Position numbers and translations under genes: made by a program. A DNA stretch of 64,000 nucleotides. Source: an uncultured Pelagibacteraceae bacterium. Its GTDB lineage: Bacteria; Pseudomonadota; Alphaproteobacteria; Pelagibacterales; Pelagibacteraceae. The number at the start of each line of letters is the position of its first letter. Position 1 is the first letter of the stretch. Location of the stretch: positions 183,392 through 247,391 of the forward strand of contig CACKJD010000002.1 in assembly GCA_902600485.1 (NCBI GenBank), given 5' to 3'. Shown one piece after another: positions 2,205-41,978 of this stretch. The notes under the pieces were generated by a model, which was not told where the DNA came from, ran no database searches, and worked only from the letters and a program-made list of their open reading frames with translations.

Positions 2205-3376
2205 CTAATAAATTTTAATGAATTTTTTAAGTCTTTTATTAAATCTTTAGGATCTTCCAAACCAATATGCAATCTAACAATGTGTTCATCTTTTGATAAA
2301 TTCAAGTATTTTCTTTTTCCTTGTTCTTTTATTTTTTGGTGCAACGCTAAACTTTCAAAACCTCCCCAACTATAACCATAACCAAACAATCTTAAAGAGT
2401 TAACAAATCTATCTATGGAGCTTATATTTCTAGATTTTATTTTGAGGCCCATTAGACCTGAGGATCCTTTATAATATTTTTTCCACATCTTATAATCTTT
2501 AGTTCCTTTTTTGTAAGGATATAAAACTGTAATCTTTTTATGTTTACTTAAAAAGGAAGCAATTTTTTTTGTATTTATCTCGTGTCTATCTAATCTTGTA
2601 TCCAAAGTTCTGAGACCTCTAATTACTAAATAAGCATCATCAGGTCCCATTCTTAAACCTGAAATTTTTTCTGCTTTTTGAACAAATTTAAATACCCTTT
2701 TATTGACTGCTAAACTTCCTCCCATTACATCTGAGTGTCCAGAATAATATTTGGTCGCTGATACAATAGCCATATCAAATCCTAATTTAATGGGTTTTAG
2801 AAAATATGGAGTTCCCCATGTGTTATCCATAGCTGTAAAAATTTTATTTTTTTTTGCAATAGAAATTATTTTTGAGAGATCTTGAAATTCAAATGTGTTA
2901 CTGCCTGGATTTTCAACAAATATTAACTTTGTTTTCTTTGTTATATTTTTTTTTAATGTGGACAAATCTCTTGGATTATAAAATATGGCTTTAATATTAA
3001 AATCTTTGAAAAAATCCTGAGTTAATATTCGCGTAGGACTGTATACTGGATCAGAAACTAGAATTTCATCTCCAGGTCTTACTACACTAAACATTGCAAG
3101 AAAAACAGAACCAAAACCAGTTGGTGTTAAGAAAACATGGTATGATTCTTCTAATTTAGTTAAAATTTTCGATAATGCAAATGTTGTCGAAGTTCCTTGC
3201 CTTCCATAATCAAAATGTCCTCCAGTAGGATCTTTTAAGTGTTTTTTTTGAGTTTTTCTAATGTCATTAAGAGATTTAAACAAAATTGTAGATGCTCTAA
3301 CAACCGGTGGATTTACAGACTGATTGTAGAAATCTTTAGCTGTATGTTTTAAAAAAGTTTTGAATGAATAACCCAT
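2201..3376 (-). CDS. metC: Cystathionine beta-lyase-like PLP enzyme
   Basis: A 391-residue member of the Cys/Met-metabolism PLP family (fold type I). The motif YGRQGTST near residues 58-65 and the PLP-lysine region SATKYYSGHSDVMGG (Lys about 209) are diagnostic, as is AMDNTWGTPY just before it. These enzymes cleave cystathionine or related C-S substrates to homocysteine, pyruvate and ammonia. Length fits the family (380-400 aa). Its distal gene is the MFS transporter, overlapping by 4 bp. A cystathionine gamma-synthase or methionine gamma-lyase activity cannot be excluded from motifs alone, although SATKYYSGHSDVMGG is most typical of MetC. Confidence 0.85.
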   Translation of the reverse strand: MGYSFKTFLKHTAKDFYNQSVNPPVVRASTILFKSLNDIRKTQKKHLKDPTGGHFDYGRQGTSTTFALSKILTKLEESYHVFLTPTGFGSVFLAMFSVVRPGDEILVSDPVYSPTRILTQDFFKDFNIKAIFYNPRDLSTLKKNITKKTKLIFVENPGSNTFEFQDLSKIISIAKKNKIFTAMDNTWGTPYFLKPIKLGFDMAIVSATKYYSGHSDVMGGSLAVNKRVFKFVQKAEKISGLRMGPDDAYLVIRGLRTLDTRLDRHEINTKKIASFLSKHKKITVLYPYKKGTKDYKMWKKYYKGSSGLMGLKIKSRNISSIDRFVNSLRLFGYGYSWGGFESLALHQKIKEQGKRKYLNLSKDEHIVRLHIGLEDPKDLIKDLKNSLKFIR

Positions 3377-14871: not shown

Positions 14872-16149
14872 TTAAAATTGATCTTTTTCCGTAGAGCCTT
14901 CCATAGCGGTTGTTGAACTTTTTCCACCACTAATGGTATTTGATACAGCGTCAAAATATGATGTTCCAACCTCTCTTTGATGTTTTACACTAGTGTATCC
15001 GTCTTTTTCTCTAGCAAATTCCTGCTGTTGAATTCTTGAATATGCAGTCATACCTTCTTTTTTATACTTTTCTGCTAATTCAAAAATTGCAATATTTTGT
15101 GTATGAAAGCCCGCAAGTGTAATGAATTGAAATTTATATCCCATCGCACTAATTTTTTGTTGAAAAGTTGCAATTTCAGAGTCTGACAAATGTTTTTTCC
15201 AATTAAAAGATGGTGAACAATTATAAGCTAATAATTTACCCGGAAATTTATTGTGTATTGCGTCAGCAAATTTTTTAGCTTCTTCTAAATTTGGAGTTGC
15301 TGTCTCACACCAAATTAGGTCAGAGTATGGTGCATATGCAAGTCCTCTAGATATTGCCTGATCGATTCCGTGTTTAACATAATAAAATCCTTCTGGTGAT
15401 CTTTCACCAGTTAAAAAGGGTTTGTCGTTTTCATCATGATCATTTGTAATTAATTTTGCTGCATTAGCATCTGTTCTTGCTAAAATTATCAAAGGAACAT
15501 CGGCAATATCAGCAGCTAACCTAGCGGCTTTTAAATTTTTTATCATTGTACTTGTTGGAACCAATACTTTTCCTCCCATATGTCCGCATTTTTTCTCACT
15601 TGCTAGCTGATCCTCAAAATGAACTCCAGCAGCGCCAGCTTTTATAAATTTTTTAGCTAACTCAAAAACATTAAGTGGTCCACCAAATCCAGCTTCGCCA
15701 TCAGCAATTATTGGTAACATATAATCAACTCTATCTTTAGATTTCATTTGACCATCTTTAATTTCCATGTGCTGAATTTGATCAGCTCTCATTAAAGCAT
15801 TATTCATTGACTCTACAAGTTTTGGTGCGCTATCGTATGGATACAATGATTGATCTGGGTACATTTCACCTGCGCTGTTAGCATCTGCTGCTACCTGCCA
15901 TCCACTTAGGTAAATTGCTTTAAGGCCGGCTTTTGCATGTTGGACCGCGTGATTTCCAGACAATGAACCTAATGTATTAACGTAAGGCTCAGAGTTTAAC
16001 AGTCTCCACAATTTTTGAGATTGATGTTTGCACATCGAATACTCTATTTTTATAGATCCTCTTAATCTTTCTACATCTTCTGGGGTATAATCTCTTTTTA
16101 CTCCTGCAAATCTCTTTAGGTCATATGATATTTTAGACTCGGAGCTCAT
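14872..16149 (-). CDS. aceA: Isocitrate lyase
   Basis: A 425-residue isocitrate lyase, first enzyme of the glyoxylate bypass, converting isocitrate to glyoxylate and succinate. The catalytic signature [13 protein letters not shown] and the downstream [12 protein letters not shown] are clear, as are [12 protein letters not shown] and [11 protein letters not shown]. Length agrees with the family (about 430). A small ORF lies 38 bp upstream in the same direction, and repeats recognised by a ScfR/RamB-type regulator are likely placed before it. The AceB/GlcB partner is not in the window. Confidence 0.97.
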
Positions 16150-16187: not shown

Positions 16188-16352
16188 TTAGTTACTGTTA
16201 TACTCGTTAGTAAACTCATTCATTCCACTTGAGCCCCAATCACAATGATCATCTCTTAAATAAATGCCAGAGTTGCCAGAGTGATTTTGATTCTCATGGT
16301 CAGAATTTAAAGCCTTATTTGCTTGATTTTTTATTTTGTTTTTGCTGTTCAT
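16188..16352 (-). CDS. 54-residue small protein upstream of aceA
   Basis: Not in the ORF track. ATG at 16352 to TAA at 16188 gives MNSKNKIKNQANKALNSDHE... with the more conserved-looking end GIYLRDDHCDWGSSGMNEFTNE. The composition is polar, with few Lys-rich AT-driven runs in the second half, which argues for a real coding sequence. It is soluble, with one Cys and no signal peptide. It sits 38 bp before aceA, and its start overlaps an inverted copy of the TTTACA repeat, so regulation with aceA is likely. No family recognised. Confidence 0.55.
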   Translation of the reverse strand: MNSKNKIKNQANKALNSDHENQNHSGNSGIYLRDDHCDWGSSGMNEFTNEYNSN

Positions 16353-16456
16353 GTAAACTTTATAATTTACAAAGTTTACAAAATCTACAAATAAGTTGTT
16401 AATGCTTGTAAAATCAATAAATTTATTGTAAATTATTATTTACAAAATTTACAAAT
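16352..16456. promoter_or_regulatory. Repeated TTTACAAA operators between aceA and scfR-like gene
   Basis: Two tandem runs of a 9-bp unit: TTTACAAAG TTTACAAAA TCTACAAAT at 16366-16392 and TTTACAAAA TTTACAAAT at 16439-16456. Inverted copies occur at 16352-16358, 16406-16413 and 16426-16433. The second run ends 8 bp before the regulator's ATG, so it may be autoregulated. RamB, a distant relative of this regulator type, binds AAAGTTTGCAAA-like sites near aceA in Corynebacterium; the similarity of these repeats supports an operator role but is not proof. Confidence 0.65.
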
Positions 16457-16464
16457 AGAAAATT

Positions 16465-17892
16465 ATGAGTCAATTAGATGTAAAAATAGGCCCAAAAATC
16501 AAGTCTTTTAGGAGACAATTGGGGCTTCAAGCTAACAAACTAGCTGAGCAACTAGGAATATCACCGAGTTATTTAAATTTAATTGAAAGTGGCAAGAGAA
16601 AAATTGATGGCGATCTTCTTTTAAAGGTTTGTGAAGAACTTAAAATAGAGCTTTCAGACTTAACAAATAAGTCAGATCTAAACTTGGTAAATGATATATC
16701 GGAATTATTGGATGATCAATTATTTGAGGATTTAGATATTCTTGGACCTGAAGTTAAAGATTTAGTAAATACAAATCCTAAGATAGCAAGAGCATTAATT
16801 AAATTAGGTGATAATTACAAACAAAAAGATAATGAAATAATCAATAAAGTTGAAACACTATCTGGCAAAATAATAGACAGTCGTAAAACTTCATTTCCAG
16901 GAGAAGTAATATCAGATTTTCTACAAGATAAACAAAATTATTTTCCAAAACTTGAAGAATTTGCAAATAAAATTTTTGAAAAAGTTCAAGTAAATAATAG
17001 AACTAGATATATTGCACTTTGTGATTTTTTAAATTCTGAATACTCAATTAAAGTTAAAGATGTAATTCCAGAAGAAGATAAACCTTTCTCAAAAATATTT
17101 AATAAAAATAAAAAAGAACTTCTCTTAAGTGACTATAATTCTTTGGAAACTAAAAAATTACACGCTGCAGCTCAAATAGCTCAAGAGGGTGCGGAAGAAG
17201 AAATTAATAGTTACCTATCTGAATTTAAGTTTCCTACTGATGAAGCAAAGAGATTAACAAAAATAGCATTACTAAATTATTGCGGCGCTGCAATATTAAT
17301 GCCTTATAAATTATTTCACTCTGAATGTAAAAAATTGAAATATGATTTAGAATTACTACAAAATACTTTTGCAACTTCTTTTGAGCAAGTAGCGCATAGA
17401 GTTACTTGCTTACAAGATCCAAAATTACCAGGAATACCTTTTCATATGTTACGAGTGGATATAGCAGGAAATATTTCAAAAAGATTTTCTTTATCTGGTA
17501 TTGAAATACCTAGATATGGGGGAGCCTGTCCAAGATGGAACGTCTATTCAGCTTTTACAAGACCAGGAGTAATTCAAGCTGCCGTAAGTAAGATGACTAA
17601 TGGTAAGAAATATGTTTGTATCGCTCGTACAGTTGAAAAAGGTGTTGGAAGATATGGTAAAAAGAAAAGTATGCTGTCTATTGGCCTAGGTTGTGAAGCA
17701 AAATATGCAAAGGACTTTGTATATACAGAAAATTTAAATTTAAATGATAAAAAAACTGAAATACCAATTGGCGTATCTTGTAGAACTTGTGATAGATTAG
17801 ATTGTTCTCAAAGAGCATTTCCTCCTCTTCATAAAAAATTTGATGTAGATATCAATTCGAGAGGAGTTTCTGTTTACGTGACAGATAAATAA
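16465..17892 (+). CDS. ScfR/RamB-type XRE regulator
   Basis: A 475-residue regulator with an N-terminal XRE helix-turn-helix (KIKSFRRQLGLQANKLAEQL ... LNLIESGKR, residues about 11-60), a central IrrE/ImmA-like region (residues about 230-300, HAAAQIAQEGAEEEI and YCGAAILMPY) and a C-terminal DUF2083-type domain with cysteines (SVGLGCEAKY-like, SCRTCDRLDCSQRAFPP). This is the architecture of short-chain acyl-CoA regulators (ScfR) that control acetyl- or propionyl-CoA use. Its divergent placement to aceA and the shared repeats suggest that it controls the glyoxylate bypass and itself. The ligand is not known from sequence. Confidence 0.85.
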   Translation: MSQLDVKIGPKIKSFRRQLGLQANKLAEQLGISPSYLNLIESGKRKIDGDLLLKVCEELKIELSDLTNKSDLNLVNDISELLDDQLFEDLDILGPEVKDLVNTNPKIARALIKLGDNYKQKDNEIINKVETLSGKIIDSRKTSFPGEVISDFLQDKQNYFPKLEEFANKIFEKVQVNNRTRYIALCDFLNSEYSIKVKDVIPEEDKPFSKIFNKNKKELLLSDYNSLETKKLHAAAQIAQEGAEEEINSYLSEFKFPTDEAKRLTKIALLNYCGAAILMPYKLFHSECKKLKYDLELLQNTFATSFEQVAHRVTCLQDPKLPGIPFHMLRVDIAGNISKRFSLSGIEIPRYGGACPRWNVYSAFTRPGVIQAAVSKMTNGKKYVCIARTVEKGVGRYGKKKSMLSIGLGCEAKYAKDFVYTENLNLNDKKTEIPIGVSCRTCDRLDCSQRAFPPLHKKFDVDINSRGVSVYVTDK

Positions 17893-17893
17893 T

Positions 17894-18949
17894 TTAAAAA
17901 CAAACTAAATGATCAATATAAACCGGTTTTTTTATACCAAATTTTTCATCTATATCATGTTGATGAATATGGTGAGAATGAACGAATACAGGTATTAAAT
18001 TCCCTTTTTCTGTTCTTAAAGTATAAATAAAATTAGTTCCTCTAAATTTTCTGTCTACCACATCAAATTTTAAGTTACTTTTGTCGTCATGAATAAGATC
18101 TTCGGGTTGTAATAATAATTTAACATTAGAACCAATTTCAGTAGGTTTAACAAATTTACCTTCAATAGTACCCAAATCATCATTTTCTAATGTGTTTTTT
18201 CCAGTGACTTTGGCTGGTATTAAAATTCCCCTGTTTAGAAAGTTAACCACACTAACAGAATTTGGATAATGATAGACTTTATAAGGATCATCAAACTGTT
18301 TTAATTTTTCATCTAAAATAACTCCACATTTATTACCTAAATAAAAAGCTTCATAGGAGTCGTGAGTTACTACAATTGTCGTTATTTTTAGATTTTTTAG
18401 AATTTTTTTTAATTGTATTTGTATTTCTTCCTTAAAGCTTTGATCAACGTTTGATAGCGGCTCATCTAAAAGTAATAAGTCTGGTTCAAATACTAGTGAT
18501 CTTGCTAGAGAAACACGTTGAGCTTCACCAGCACTTATTTGATGAGGAAATTTTTTTAAGACATTATTTAGATTTAACAATTTAATTATAAAGTCTGGAA
18601 TGATTTTTTTTGTTTTGTTTTTATTTCTATTTACAGCTATTTGAATATTTTTTTCTACAGTATAGTGAGGAAACAAACAATTATCCTGGAAAGCTAATGA
18701 TATATTCCTATTTTCTGGTTCCACATGATTATCTTTTGAAGATATTAACTGTCCTTTTAAAAAAATTTCACCTTTATTAATTTTTTCAAGCCCTGCTATA
18801 GTTCTTAAAATTGTAGTTTTACCTATGCCAGAAGGTCCTAACAAACAAATTATATCTCCCTCATTTTCTATGGAAAAAGAAACGTTTTTTACTTTTTCAA
18901 TTCCATCTACCGAAAAATTTACGTTTTTTATTTCAAAAATATTTTTCAT
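17894..18949 (-). CDS. fbpC: Ferric iron ABC transporter, ATP-binding protein (FbpC-type)
   Basis: A 351-residue ATPase. Walker A is LLGPSGIGKTTILR, the signature LSGGQ is degenerate as ISAGEAQRVSLARSL, Walker B is LLLLDEPLS and the switch histidine is VVTHD. The C-terminal extension (residues about 240-351) resembles the TOBE regulatory domain of FbpC/PotA-like importers. It energises uptake by the permease gene that lies immediately upstream (1 bp gap). The order binding protein, permease, ATPase on the minus strand is the normal Fbp/Afu operon. Confidence 0.92.
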   Translation of the reverse strand: MKNIFEIKNVNFSVDGIEKVKNVSFSIENEGDIICLLGPSGIGKTTILRTIAGLEKINKGEIFLKGQLISSKDNHVEPENRNISLAFQDNCLFPHYTVEKNIQIAVNRNKNKTKKIIPDFIIKLLNLNNVLKKFPHQISAGEAQRVSLARSLVFEPDLLLLDEPLSNVDQSFKEEIQIQLKKILKNLKITTIVVTHDSYEAFYLGNKCGVILDEKLKQFDDPYKVYHYPNSVSVVNFLNRGILIPAKVTGKNTLENDDLGTIEGKFVKPTEIGSNVKLLLQPEDLIHDDKSNLKFDVVDRKFRGTNFIYTLRTEKGNLIPVFVHSHHIHQHDIDEKFGIKKPVYIDHLVCF

Positions 18950-20563
18950 TTAATCTCGTAATATAAACTTAGATGTTGATAAAATAAATACACTAGCAAT
19001 TAAGATTAAAATTAAAGACGGTGCAGCAGCTGCCTCTAATAAATCCTCAGATGCGTATATATATGCAGTAGTTGCGAATGTCTCAAAATTAAATGGTCTT
19101 AAAATTAATGTAATTGGAAGCTCTCTAATTATTTCAAGAGAAATTAAAATTGCCACAAATAAAACTGAATTCCTTAAATAAGGTATATGTATATTAACAA
19201 ATGTTTTAATTTTTGAATATCCTAGTAAATATGCACTCTCATCAACAGAAAGATTAATTTTTTCGTATCCTGACTTTATACCGTTACAAGCCAACGAATA
19301 AAATCTTATAAAATAAACTATAACAAGTCCTAGTATTGAACCAAAAAATACCTTTTTAATAGATTCAAATCCAAAAAATTTTACAAAATTATTATCAAAC
19401 CATGCAATAAAAGTAATAAATGCAATTGCTAAGATTACACCAGGTATTGCATATCCAGATATTGATAGCGTGTTTATTATATTTAATGGTTTGCTTTTTG
19501 AGACTCTCATTCCATAATTAGATATAAATGAAAAAATAATAAGTGCTAAACTTGATAAGAAAACTAAATATAGGGTATTGTAAATTAGACTTAATACTTC
19601 TAAATCAAAAAGATTATCAGAATAAATAATTGTCCAATACAACATTTGACTAGATGGAAATATGAAGCTCAAAAAAAATATTACAAAGCAAAATAGAAAT
19701 GCCAAAAAACTTTTTCCTCCATCTAGTTTATATTTCTCTCGTTGTTTAAATCTGCTTGATGAGTTTGAATGATATTTTGCTTGTTTTCTTGATAAATTTT
19801 CTAAGATGAATAAGGCAAAAATAAATAACAATAAAAAGAATGAAAGCCTATTTGCAAATGCAAGGTCATCAAATGTTATCCATGAATTATATATTCCAGT
19901 TGTTAGAGTATTTATTGAAAAGAAGTCTACAGCGCCGAATTCTGCTAAAGTTTCCATTGCCACTAAAGATAATCCAGCAACTATTGCAGGTCTGGCAGAC
20001 GGTAAAATTACCTGTAAAAAAGCCCTTATTTTAGAAAATCCCAAATTTTTACTAAGGTCTATTAAATTTTGAGATTGATATAAAAAAGAAGCTCTGGCTA
20101 AAATGTATACGTAAGCAAACAAAGAAAAGGATAATGATAATATCGCTCCAAACATGCCGCTAAATTTAGGTATGTGTTTATTGTATTCCCCCTCACCAAA
20201 TAAATTTTTAAGAATGGTAAAAGCAGTTCCATAATTGTCAAAAAAAGCAAAAATAGAATACGCATAGATATAAGGAGGAACAGCAAAAGATAATATTAAA
20301 GCCCATTTAAAAAAATTACTCCCTGGAAAATCATAAAAAGAAACAAGATAAGCTGTGCCTGTTCCAAAGATAAAAGTTAAAATCAAAACTCCAACCAATA
20401 AAGTTACAGAATTATATATATATTCTAGTAAAAAGGTTTCTTTTAAAATTTTATAATATTCTGTTGTTTCCTCAAAAAAACTAAAAGAAACAGTTGCTAT
20501 AGGAATCAAAACTATAAATGAGATAAGAAAAGAGCTTAAGTACCAAATATTAATTTTTTTCAT
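18950..20563 (-). CDS. fbpB: Ferric iron ABC transporter permease (FbpB-type, fused)
   Basis: A 537-residue double-length permease, consisting of two BPD_transp_1 modules of six spans each. The EAA-like coupling helices are LIDLSKNLGFSKIRAFLQVILPSARPAI (around residue 180) and VDESAYLLGYSKIKTFVNIHIPYLR (around 450). This fused form is standard for FbpB/AfuB. It moves Fe3+ delivered by the periplasmic protein across the inner membrane. It abuts the ATPase gene. About 250 bp separate it from the binding-protein gene, filled by a small Cys-motif ORF and a hairpin. Confidence 0.92.
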   Translation of the reverse strand: MKKINIWYLSSFLISFIVLIPIATVSFSFFEETTEYYKILKETFLLEYIYNSVTLLVGVLILTFIFGTGTAYLVSFYDFPGSNFFKWALILSFAVPPYIYAYSIFAFFDNYGTAFTILKNLFGEGEYNKHIPKFSGMFGAILSLSFSLFAYVYILARASFLYQSQNLIDLSKNLGFSKIRAFLQVILPSARPAIVAGLSLVAMETLAEFGAVDFFSINTLTTGIYNSWITFDDLAFANRLSFFLLLFIFALFILENLSRKQAKYHSNSSSRFKQREKYKLDGGKSFLAFLFCFVIFFLSFIFPSSQMLYWTIIYSDNLFDLEVLSLIYNTLYLVFLSSLALIIFSFISNYGMRVSKSKPLNIINTLSISGYAIPGVILAIAFITFIAWFDNNFVKFFGFESIKKVFFGSILGLVIVYFIRFYSLACNGIKSGYEKINLSVDESAYLLGYSKIKTFVNIHIPYLRNSVLFVAILISLEIIRELPITLILRPFNFETFATTAYIYASEDLLEAAAAPSLILILIASVFILSTSKFILRD

Positions 20564-20596
20564 ATTATAATCCGCCTTATAATCATGAAATTAAAT

Positions 20597-20626
20597 ATGC
20601 CCATAGAGGAGATCGTCTACGGGCAT
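20597..20626 (-). terminator. Hairpin between the binding-protein cluster and the permease
   Basis: ATGCCCATAGA / TCTACGGGCAT inverted repeat with one G-T wobble and an 8-nt loop, followed on the minus strand by ATTTAATTTCATGATT. It may act as a partial (attenuating) terminator, giving more binding protein than permease, as is common for ABC operons. It could also protect the upstream mRNA 3' end. The T-tract is imperfect, so termination efficiency is uncertain. Confidence 0.55.
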
Positions 20627-20642
20627 ACAATCAAGAAATTAT

Positions 20643-20813
20643 CTAAAAATCAAAAACCTTTAGGATATGCGGAACCTCCTTATCTTTAATATCAGATAAA
20701 TTTCTTTTATTTATTCTGTCATTGATTTTTTTACACTCTGAAAGACACGGTGAGCATCCTTTAGAAGATTTATTATAATCTATTTCAGAAATAAATTCTT
20801 TTTTATCTTTCAT
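20643..20813 (-). CDS. 56-residue protein with CxxCxxxC motif in the iron operon
   Basis: Absent from the ORF track. ATG begins one base after the fbpA stop (TAA T ATG), so it is translationally coupled. The product is MKDKKEFISEIDYNKSSKGC... with SKGCSPCLSECKKIND, giving three cysteines spaced CxxCxxxC, then a charged tail ending HILKVFDF. There is no signal peptide, so it should be cytoplasmic. Placement inside a Fur-controlled ferric uptake operon suggests metal or Fe-S binding, but no family was recognised. Confidence 0.6.
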   Translation of the reverse strand: MKDKKEFISEIDYNKSSKGCSPCLSECKKINDRINKRNLSDIKDKEVPHILKVFDF

Positions 20814-20814
20814 A

Positions 20815-21840
20815 TTATTTCCAACCAGCTGCTGTCATTACTTCTAATGCATCAGCTTGTTTTGCACCATAACTTGAAACTTTAGTTTTTAGATCTTGTT
20901 TAAAATCTAATCCTATATTGTTCACAACCAGCGGGCTTGGAGAAACATCATCGATCATTGGAAACTCAAAAGTATTATTTGTAAAGTGCTCTTGAGCTTC
21001 TGTAGTTAATAAAAACTCTACAAGTTTAATCGCATTTGCTTTATTAGGTGCGCCTTTTACTAAAGCAGCACAACTAATATTCATATGTGTTCCTCTATCA
21101 TTTTGGTTAGGAAAGAAAGCTTTTACTTTTTTCGCAGCAGCTTGTTGCTCTGCTCCTTTGTTTCCTGATAACATTAATGCTAGATAATATGTATTAGCAA
21201 CGGCAATATCTGCTTCACCAGCAGCAACTGCCATAATTTGAGCTCGGTCATTTCCTATTGGTGTCCTAGCCATGTTTGCAACAACACCTTTTGCCCAATC
21301 AGCTGTAGCTTTTTTACCATTATTTTTAACTAATGATGCTACAAGTGATTTATTATAAATATTACCTGATGCTCTAATTACTAATCTACCCTTCCATTTC
21401 GGATCAGCTAAACTTTCATAAGTTAAACCTGACAACTCTGCACCTGATACTCTATCTGGAGCGTAGTAAACAATTCTTGCTCTTTTAGCAATTCCTGTCC
21501 AATGGTTTGTTCTAAAGTTTGACGGAACAGCTGCTTTTATTGCAGGTGAAATTAGACCACCTTGCGTCATACCTTTTGCTTTGAATGCTCCACATCGACC
21601 AGCATCAGCAGTGATGTAAAGATCAGCGGAAGAATCTGCTCCCTCTTCGATCATTCTTTTTTCAAGAGCTCCTGCTTTTCCGTTTATTAAATTAACTTTA
21701 ATTCCAGTTTTGTTTGTGAACTTACTGTAAAGTTCTGCATCAGCTTTATAATGTCTTGCATTAAAGATATTAACTTCAGCAGCTATCGTTAAACTAGAAA
21801 TGAAAGTTAAAAGTATTGTATATATACTTAGTTTTTTCAT
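20815..21840 (-). CDS. fbpA: Ferric iron-binding periplasmic protein (FbpA/AfuA-type)
   Basis: A 341-residue class III periplasmic binding protein with a signal peptide (MKKLSIYTILLTFISSLTIA, cleaved before AEVNIFNARHY). The YN/HY-containing N-terminus, the ADLYITADAGRC block, and the tyrosine pair ANTYYLALM at about residue 218 match the Fe3+-ligating residues of FbpA, including the Tyr dyad. It captures free ferric ion in the periplasm and delivers it to FbpB. Three tandem Fur-like boxes lie just upstream of the start. Confidence 0.93.
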   Translation of the reverse strand: MKKLSIYTILLTFISSLTIAAEVNIFNARHYKADAELYSKFTNKTGIKVNLINGKAGALEKRMIEEGADSSADLYITADAGRCGAFKAKGMTQGGLISPAIKAAVPSNFRTNHWTGIAKRARIVYYAPDRVSGAELSGLTYESLADPKWKGRLVIRASGNIYNKSLVASLVKNNGKKATADWAKGVVANMARTPIGNDRAQIMAVAAGEADIAVANTYYLALMLSGNKGAEQQAAAKKVKAFFPNQNDRGTHMNISCAALVKGAPNKANAIKLVEFLLTTEAQEHFTNNTFEFPMIDDVSPSPLVVNNIGLDFKQDLKTKVSSYGAKQADALEVMTAAGWK

Positions 21841-41275: not shown

Positions 41276-41820
41276 TGTTTGCACAATTTTTAAGCATCGT
41301 ATTTAGATCAATTAAGCTCGATAAAAATCTTTATAGAGAAAGTAAGAGTTTTGGTGAGGCAGCAATATATTTTTCGGCTCTTGTTATGGTTTTAGATGGG
41401 GTAGCTGGAGCTATTGCAGCAAATACATTTTACAAAACATCGATCGGTTTATCCGCGATTACTGCTATTTTTACCTGGTTCGTTTGGGCAATATTTATAT
41501 TTGTAATTGGAGTAAAACTATTTCCAGACAAAGATACTAAGGTTCCATTTAAAAAAATACTTATAGCGGTAGGTTTTGCTCATGCCCCTGGCCTATTAAG
41601 ATTTTTCGCTATTACGCCAACTATGGTAATGCCAGTTATATTTCTTACTCAACTATGGATTTTCGCATCCCTTATAATTTCAACAAGAGAGGTGTTACAA
41701 TTAAAATCCAATTTTAAATCTTTTGGAATTATATTTTTGTCATTTTTAATACTAGCTATATTATCAGTGTCTTTTGTTATGAGTAGAATGGATACGTTGC
41801 CAATAAGTAATGTAACTTAA
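41275..41820 (+). CDS. Yip1-domain membrane protein
   Basis: A 181-residue protein with five predicted spans. ATGLSAITAIFTWFVWAIFIFVIGV-like segments and the cytoplasmic loop KVPFKKILIAVGFAHAPGLLRFF resemble the Yip1/YIP family of marine bacterial membrane proteins. No catalytic motif. It ends 4 bp into the stop of the convergent zinc-ribbon gene. Confidence 0.7.
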   Translation: MFAQFLSIVFRSIKLDKNLYRESKSFGEAAIYFSALVMVLDGVAGAIAANTFYKTSIGLSAITAIFTWFVWAIFIFVIGVKLFPDKDTKVPFKKILIAVGFAHAPGLLRFFAITPTMVMPVIFLTQLWIFASLIISTREVLQLKSNFKSFGIIFLSFLILAILSVSFVMSRMDTLPISNVT

Positions 41821-41978
41821 ATTGGAAATATTGTTTTAGACACTCTACAAGATTTACAAATTTTAAATCCTGTAAATATTAAATTATGGGTAACACTTTC
41901 GTCATTTTTTTTACATTCCTCACATAAATCGTCTAATGACTCTTCAGTATAATCAATGTTTGAGTTTTCTTTAGTCAT
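41817..41978 (-). CDS. 53-residue zinc-ribbon microprotein
   Basis: Not in the ORF track. ATG at 41978 overlaps the stop of the DUF3726 gene by 8 bp, and the frame ends at TAA 41817-41819. The sequence contains LCEEC and, later, KICKSCRVSK: two CxxC pairs about 20 residues apart, a probable zinc ribbon. An acidic N-terminal third (SNIDYTEESLDDL) precedes it. Last gene of the operon with DUF3726, the 553-aa protein and M19 dipeptidase. Confidence 0.7.
   Translation of the reverse strand: MTKENSNIDYTEESLDDLCEECKKNDESVTHNLIFTGFKICKSCRVSKTIFPI

Follow-up and report, generated by a model that had tools for sequence, protein, structure and literature searches.

The aceA locus and its array of boxes

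We analysed a 64,000-nucleotide stretch of SAR11 DNA (hereafter the window, to which all coordinates refer), in which the isocitrate lyase gene aceA is divergent from the gene of an ScfR-family regulator, with a compact array of short boxes in between. The features of this locus are the following:

14872..16149, minus strand: aceA, isocitrate lyase (NF011645, 730 bits against a cut-off of 562)
16188..16352, minus strand: unannotated gene for a 54-aa microprotein with the core GIYLRDDHCDWGSSGM, the first gene behind group A
16366..16391, no strand assigned: box group A on the aceA side, made up of A1, A2 and A3
16366, plus strand: box A1, TTTACAAA (group A)
16375, plus strand: box A2, TTTACAAA (group A)
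16384, plus strand: box A3, TCTACAAA, degenerate (group A)
16405..16412, minus strand: box M1, CTTGTAAA, single inverted box with an invariant GTAAA core
16425..16432, minus strand: box M2, ATTGTAAA, single inverted box with an invariant TGTAAA core
16439..16455, no strand assigned: box pair B, TTTACAAA-A-TTTACAAA, on the regulator side, with plus-strand boxes at 16439 and 16448
16465..17892, plus strand: ScfR-family regulator of 475 aa, with an HTH, an IrrE-like middle and a ScfRs C-terminal domain
17894..21840, minus strand: Fe(III) ABC transporter (ATPase, permease and binding protein), context outside the array

The initial annotation placed the array between aceA and the regulator, but it had missed the conserved microprotein gene, which the array faces in place of aceA itself; aceA follows after 38 bp. 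Defining a box as a match to TTTACAAA with at most one mismatch on either strand within 16352-16456, we found seven boxes across 16366-16455 (five direct and two inverted), separated in order by gaps of 1, 1, 13, 12, 6 and 1 bp. The five direct copies form two runs with an exact 9-bp period, as originally described (16366, 16375 and 16384; 16439 and 16448). Between group A and the microprotein start codon there are 13 bp, and pair B stops 9 bp short of the regulator ATG (16465), the 8 bp given earlier being correct for the last 9-mer. Two of the three inverted copies first proposed were recovered (16405 and 16425), while the third, CATGTAAA at ~16350-16357, carries 2 mismatches and holds the start codon of the microprotein gene. 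The description of neighbouring copies as lying on nearly the same DNA face proved loose, as a 9-bp step turns the helix by ~309 degrees and leaves neighbouring boxes ~50 degrees apart.

The seven boxes compare with a mean of 1.67 and a maximum of 6 in 5000 dinucleotide shuffles of the 105 bp, and the three exact same-orientation 9-bp steps with a mean of 0.011 and a maximum of 1 in the same shuffles. The single 8-mer TTTACAAA was not enriched (18 occurrences in the whole 64-kb window versus 18.05 expected). Pattern searches, on which all of our genome-wide counts are based, found the 17-mer TTTACAAA-N-TTTACAAA in two exact copies in the 1.09-Mb genome, both within the array, and a reversed-pattern control for this 17-mer pair returned 0 matches. 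The commonness of the repeat elsewhere had been named at the outset as a point against an operator, and here the outcome was divided: the 9-mer alone is indeed common, whereas the tandem pair is unique to the array locus. Among the matches listed with at most 2 mismatches to the 17-mer, all other sites but one lay inside open frames of at least 100 aa; the exception, at 41844, falls inside a 53-aa reading frame (41817-41978, minus strand) whose CEEC and CKSC motifs make it possibly a small zinc-ribbon protein. A wider regulon was rejected, with no second intergenic pair in the genome among the matches listed and the 41844 candidate inside that short frame, and the array looks dedicated to a local target as far as the genome shows.

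The microprotein is present at nearly all of the 110 loci that we read, with a dN/dS of 0.04 in the core and 0.12 over the whole, and its core follows the pattern G[IVL][YF]x[RN][DE]D[HD][CQ]DWG[SA][SA]GM. It had no match in Pfam or NCBIfam, no phage match and no credible PDB match, and its AlphaFold model (pLDDT 60) gave no confident fold. In the SAR11 genomes searched it was found at the aceA locus only, and it was absent where the regulator or aceA was absent. A single weak class-level match outside the aceA locus (E 0.005, in genome G506) was discarded as part of an unrelated ORF. In genus g5 (loci L130, L131, L134, L136 and L138) the microprotein is replaced by an ORF that starts MTHREKH or MTRREKH and overlaps the start of aceA.

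Conservation of the array and its linkage to the regulator gene

We drew 297 SAR11-family genomes, of which 119 matched the regulator and 114 had it located, the remaining 183 forming the set without a located regulator. At every locus read (110/110), aceA was divergent from the regulator with boxes in between, which bears out the conservation expected of the array in relatives. Across the 81 different sequences from the genus, the boxes kept a rigid order and spacing, with A1, A2, (A3), M1, M2, B1 and B2 at about -98, -89, -80, -59, -39, -25 and -16 from the regulator start. The majority base averaged 0.955 in box columns, leaving out A3, versus 0.698 in inter-box columns of these 81 sequences, and none of 111 circular shifts gave as large a contrast. 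A1 and A2 were conserved at 91-98%, A3 at 84% and pair B at 96-99%. The array is real, conserved and operator-like.

Genera whose regulator is 64-68% identical have pair B the other way round, as TTTGTAAA-N-TTTGTAAA, extending to the ATG with an unchanged 9-bp step. From A1 to B1 there are 73-74 bp throughout the genus, and A and B lie 81 or 89 bp apart in other genera. Wherever a clear pair could be read, both copies within it pointed in the same direction, whereas A and B had either the same or opposite orientation. Since direction is constant within pairs and variable between them, the conserved unit looks to be the box pair rather than the entire array.

The 17-bp spacing of M1 and M2 in the window also fits the -35 and -10 elements of a regulator promoter. 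We discarded it as a full account because the TGTAAA of M2 is conserved but the bases behind it, at the expected place of a -10, are not, though M1 could double as a -35-like element. A promoter search gave weak matches only, with no clear conserved -10 or -35 on the aceA or the regulator side.

The boxes followed the regulator gene closely: 95 of 97 exact 17-mers in the 114 genomes with a located regulator lay within 150 bp of its start, and all 183 genomes without a located regulator together held 8 matches. Among the 23 genomes without the regulator or with weak matches only, 20 had no aceA proper. The sole genome with aceA and a true loss of the regulator (G002) lacks the microprotein too, and the 1.5 kb preceding aceA contain no perfect box. 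G166 and G168, two further genomes that seemed to have aceA but no regulator, were set aside as contig ends, and the remaining apparent cases as weak partial matches of at most 52 bits that are not aceA. Among the 26 best class-level homologues from outside the order, 19 likewise face an isocitrate lyase gene (57-66% identity), and 9-bp pairs are seen at some. Both pairs are present at a locus of another family (L166, regulator identity 44%), in whose genome we found no aceA match; there a 59-aa ORF of unrelated sequence (3043-3222) occupies the microprotein's divergent place next to the array.

The regulator, related systems and iron context

The regulator matched HTH_3 (48 bits), PF06114 (46 bits) and PF09856 (202 bits, cut-off 24), and scored 215 bits against the structure of Mycobacterium tuberculosis PrpR. 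Testing the ligand pattern C-X2-C-X4-C plus one Cys in the GAF-like domain, we found all four [4Fe-4S] ligand positions (C439, C442 and C447, with C355 in the GAF-like domain); CX2CX4C occurred in 102/102 homologues and both cysteine motifs in 100/102. The protein thus has the domains and cysteines of the ScfR / IsaR group of short-chain fatty acyl-CoA, Fe-S regulators, while its score against the RamB equivalog NF038139 (376.5 bits) is below the cut-off of 700. That it senses iron or acyl-CoA is plausible. Nine of ~84 genus regulators (L038, L039, L040, L041, L044, L045, L074, L086 and L113; ~565-580 aa, two HTH_3 matches) have a duplicated N-terminal HTH. On the tree this duplication needs three state changes, pointing to repeated gain, loss or exchange, and two DNA-reading heads per chain would suit a 9-bp direct repeat.

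The M. tuberculosis PrpR/RamB site is a 17-bp element, TTTGCAAA-N-TTTGCgAA, found at prpR-prpD and icl1 (PMC6765138). The SAR11 pairs resemble it in having two 8-bp boxes separated by 1 bp, beside an ScfR-family gene and ahead of isocitrate lyase. They differ in that the SAR11 core is asymmetric (TTTACAAA/TTTGTAAA) and does not match the palindromic box TTTGCAAA, in that two pairs and two single inverted boxes share one divergent region, and in that the A/B orientation varies between genera. In Paracoccus denitrificans, the motif of RamB (class 2), genetically an activator, comprises two boxes with 18 bp between them and lies 82 bp upstream of malate synthase (PMC10370305). Here too an alphaproteobacterial ScfR regulator is divergent from glyoxylate-cycle genes and the boxes are near-identical, but the SAR11 boxes adjoin start codons and repeat at a 9-bp step, without the 18-bp spacer. 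Repression of isocitrate lyase by an ScfR-family regulator, as predicted in SAR11, is shared with RamB-aceA of Corynebacterium and Mycobacterium (class 1), from which the SAR11 system differs in its sub-cut-off regulator (376 bits versus 700) and in having, on the evidence of the genome, just a local target. Sites of this kind are already known, and the use in SAR11 is new for this organism; we found no description of that use or of the microprotein in the literature searched.

The binding protein of the adjoining transporter is closest to FutA/FbpA-type structures. In the window the transporter is convergent with the regulator, on its far side from the array, and in L286 it lies on the aceA side. 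Of 12 other genomes examined, 2 (L286 and L295) have it next to the locus, so this linkage is not general. The gene order in L286 (sfuA, sfuB, sfuC, a 97-aa ORF, aceA, microprotein, array, regulator) matches SAR11_1236-1242 of P. ubique (PMC2864753), where arrays under iron limitation showed sfuC up 16-fold, aceA (SAR11_1240) up 1.58-fold (P 0.091) and the neighbouring 'transcription regulator' SAR11_1242 up 1.60-fold (P 0.054) (PMC2864753). Equal co-induction of this kind would be expected of an autoregulated repressor that lets go when iron is short, but the rise is modest and may also reflect Fur-type control.

A proposed operator and competing explanations

The initial proposal of an operator through which the divergent ScfR-type regulator controls aceA and itself is partly supported, and well supported on comparative grounds (conservation, co-occurrence, loss with the regulator, and the 8+1+8 geometry shared with M. 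tuberculosis). With a probability of roughly 0.8, we propose that the ScfR regulator acts at the array on both sides, as at an operator-like region, and the likeliest reading is that of an ScfR operator, dedicated and autoregulated. The 8+1+8 layout, as in the M. tuberculosis site, and the protein family make the ScfR regulator the natural ligand, so that its binding to the boxes is inferred from what is known of the family. The recognition unit would be two 8-bp boxes at a 9-bp step, TTTACAAA-N-TTTACAAA, with group A serving the microprotein-aceA operon, pair B serving the regulator, and M1 and M2 in between. Because the two divergent promoters, their start sites or the ribosome sites have to lie where A and B are, a regulator bound to either should keep transcription or translation from starting, and for this reason we somewhat favor repression on both sides, the effect that RamB has on icl1 in M. 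tuberculosis. As no conserved -10 or -35 could be assigned, this repression geometry is drawn from the start-codon distances. By analogy with PrpR/RamB, release would follow a change in the acyl-CoA ligand and/or the [4Fe-4S] cluster, after which aceA and the regulator would rise together. Against this reading count the asymmetric core in place of the palindrome, the marginal P values of the P. ubique arrays, the single genome with a true loss of the regulator, and the at least partly activating role of two relatives studied by experiment (PrpR and Paracoccus RamB).

The main rival has the opposite sign: the regulator would activate aceA from group A and perhaps repress itself from pair B. Precedents exist, as in Paracoccus the glyoxylate operon is switched on by RamB, which uses two boxes (PMC10370305), and PrpR activates prpDC, and icl1 (PMC6765138), and the lack of a good -35 at aceA is what an activator-dependent promoter would show. 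However, with 13 bp between group A and the first start codon, an upstream activator site there would call for an unusual promoter, and M. tuberculosis RamB represses icl1; we consider activation a serious but clearly less probable reading.

Repression might instead act through a small DNA loop, in which a tetramer bridges A and B and locks both promoters. PrpR is a D2 tetramer (PMC6765138) and the 73-74 bp from A1 to B1 throughout the genus span about seven helical turns, but 73 bp of DNA is stiff, and the 81 or 89 bp between A and B in other genera, where pair B is flipped, are not whole-turn changes. These distances argue against looping at a fixed helical phase, and we regard a loop as improbable. 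It is more doubtful still that the boxes belong to another regulator, such as an iron regulator, with the ScfR protein incidental: an iron transporter does neighbour the array region both in the window and in L286, and these genes go up when iron is limiting, but the pair tracks the ScfR gene across genera, is nearly absent without it and matches a known ScfR-family site. Neutral AT-rich tandem repeats without function, a reading that the AT-rich genome and the chance frequency of the single 8-mer would allow, are already refuted by the conservation data, with near-invariant boxes in variable spacers, a count that shuffles never reach and loss along with the regulator.

Returning to the autoregulated ScfR operator, a bolder and rather unlikely extension would make the array an iron-sensing control point of SAR11, at which the [4Fe-4S] cluster and acyl-CoA hold the regulator on the boxes, iron shortage loosens it, microprotein-aceA and the regulator switch on together, and the microprotein directly modulates isocitrate lyase. 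A passage in PMC6618146, citing Beier 2015, states that SAR11 raises its glyoxylate shunt under iron scarcity, and no regulator for this rise was found in the literature searched. SAR11 cells are among the most abundant in the ocean and have kept few regulators, and isocitrate lyase is a carbon-saving enzyme. Together, the apparently dedicated operator, the candidate Fe-S/acyl-CoA sensor and the microprotein gene ahead of aceA make the question of glyoxylate-shunt control testable on defined boxes.
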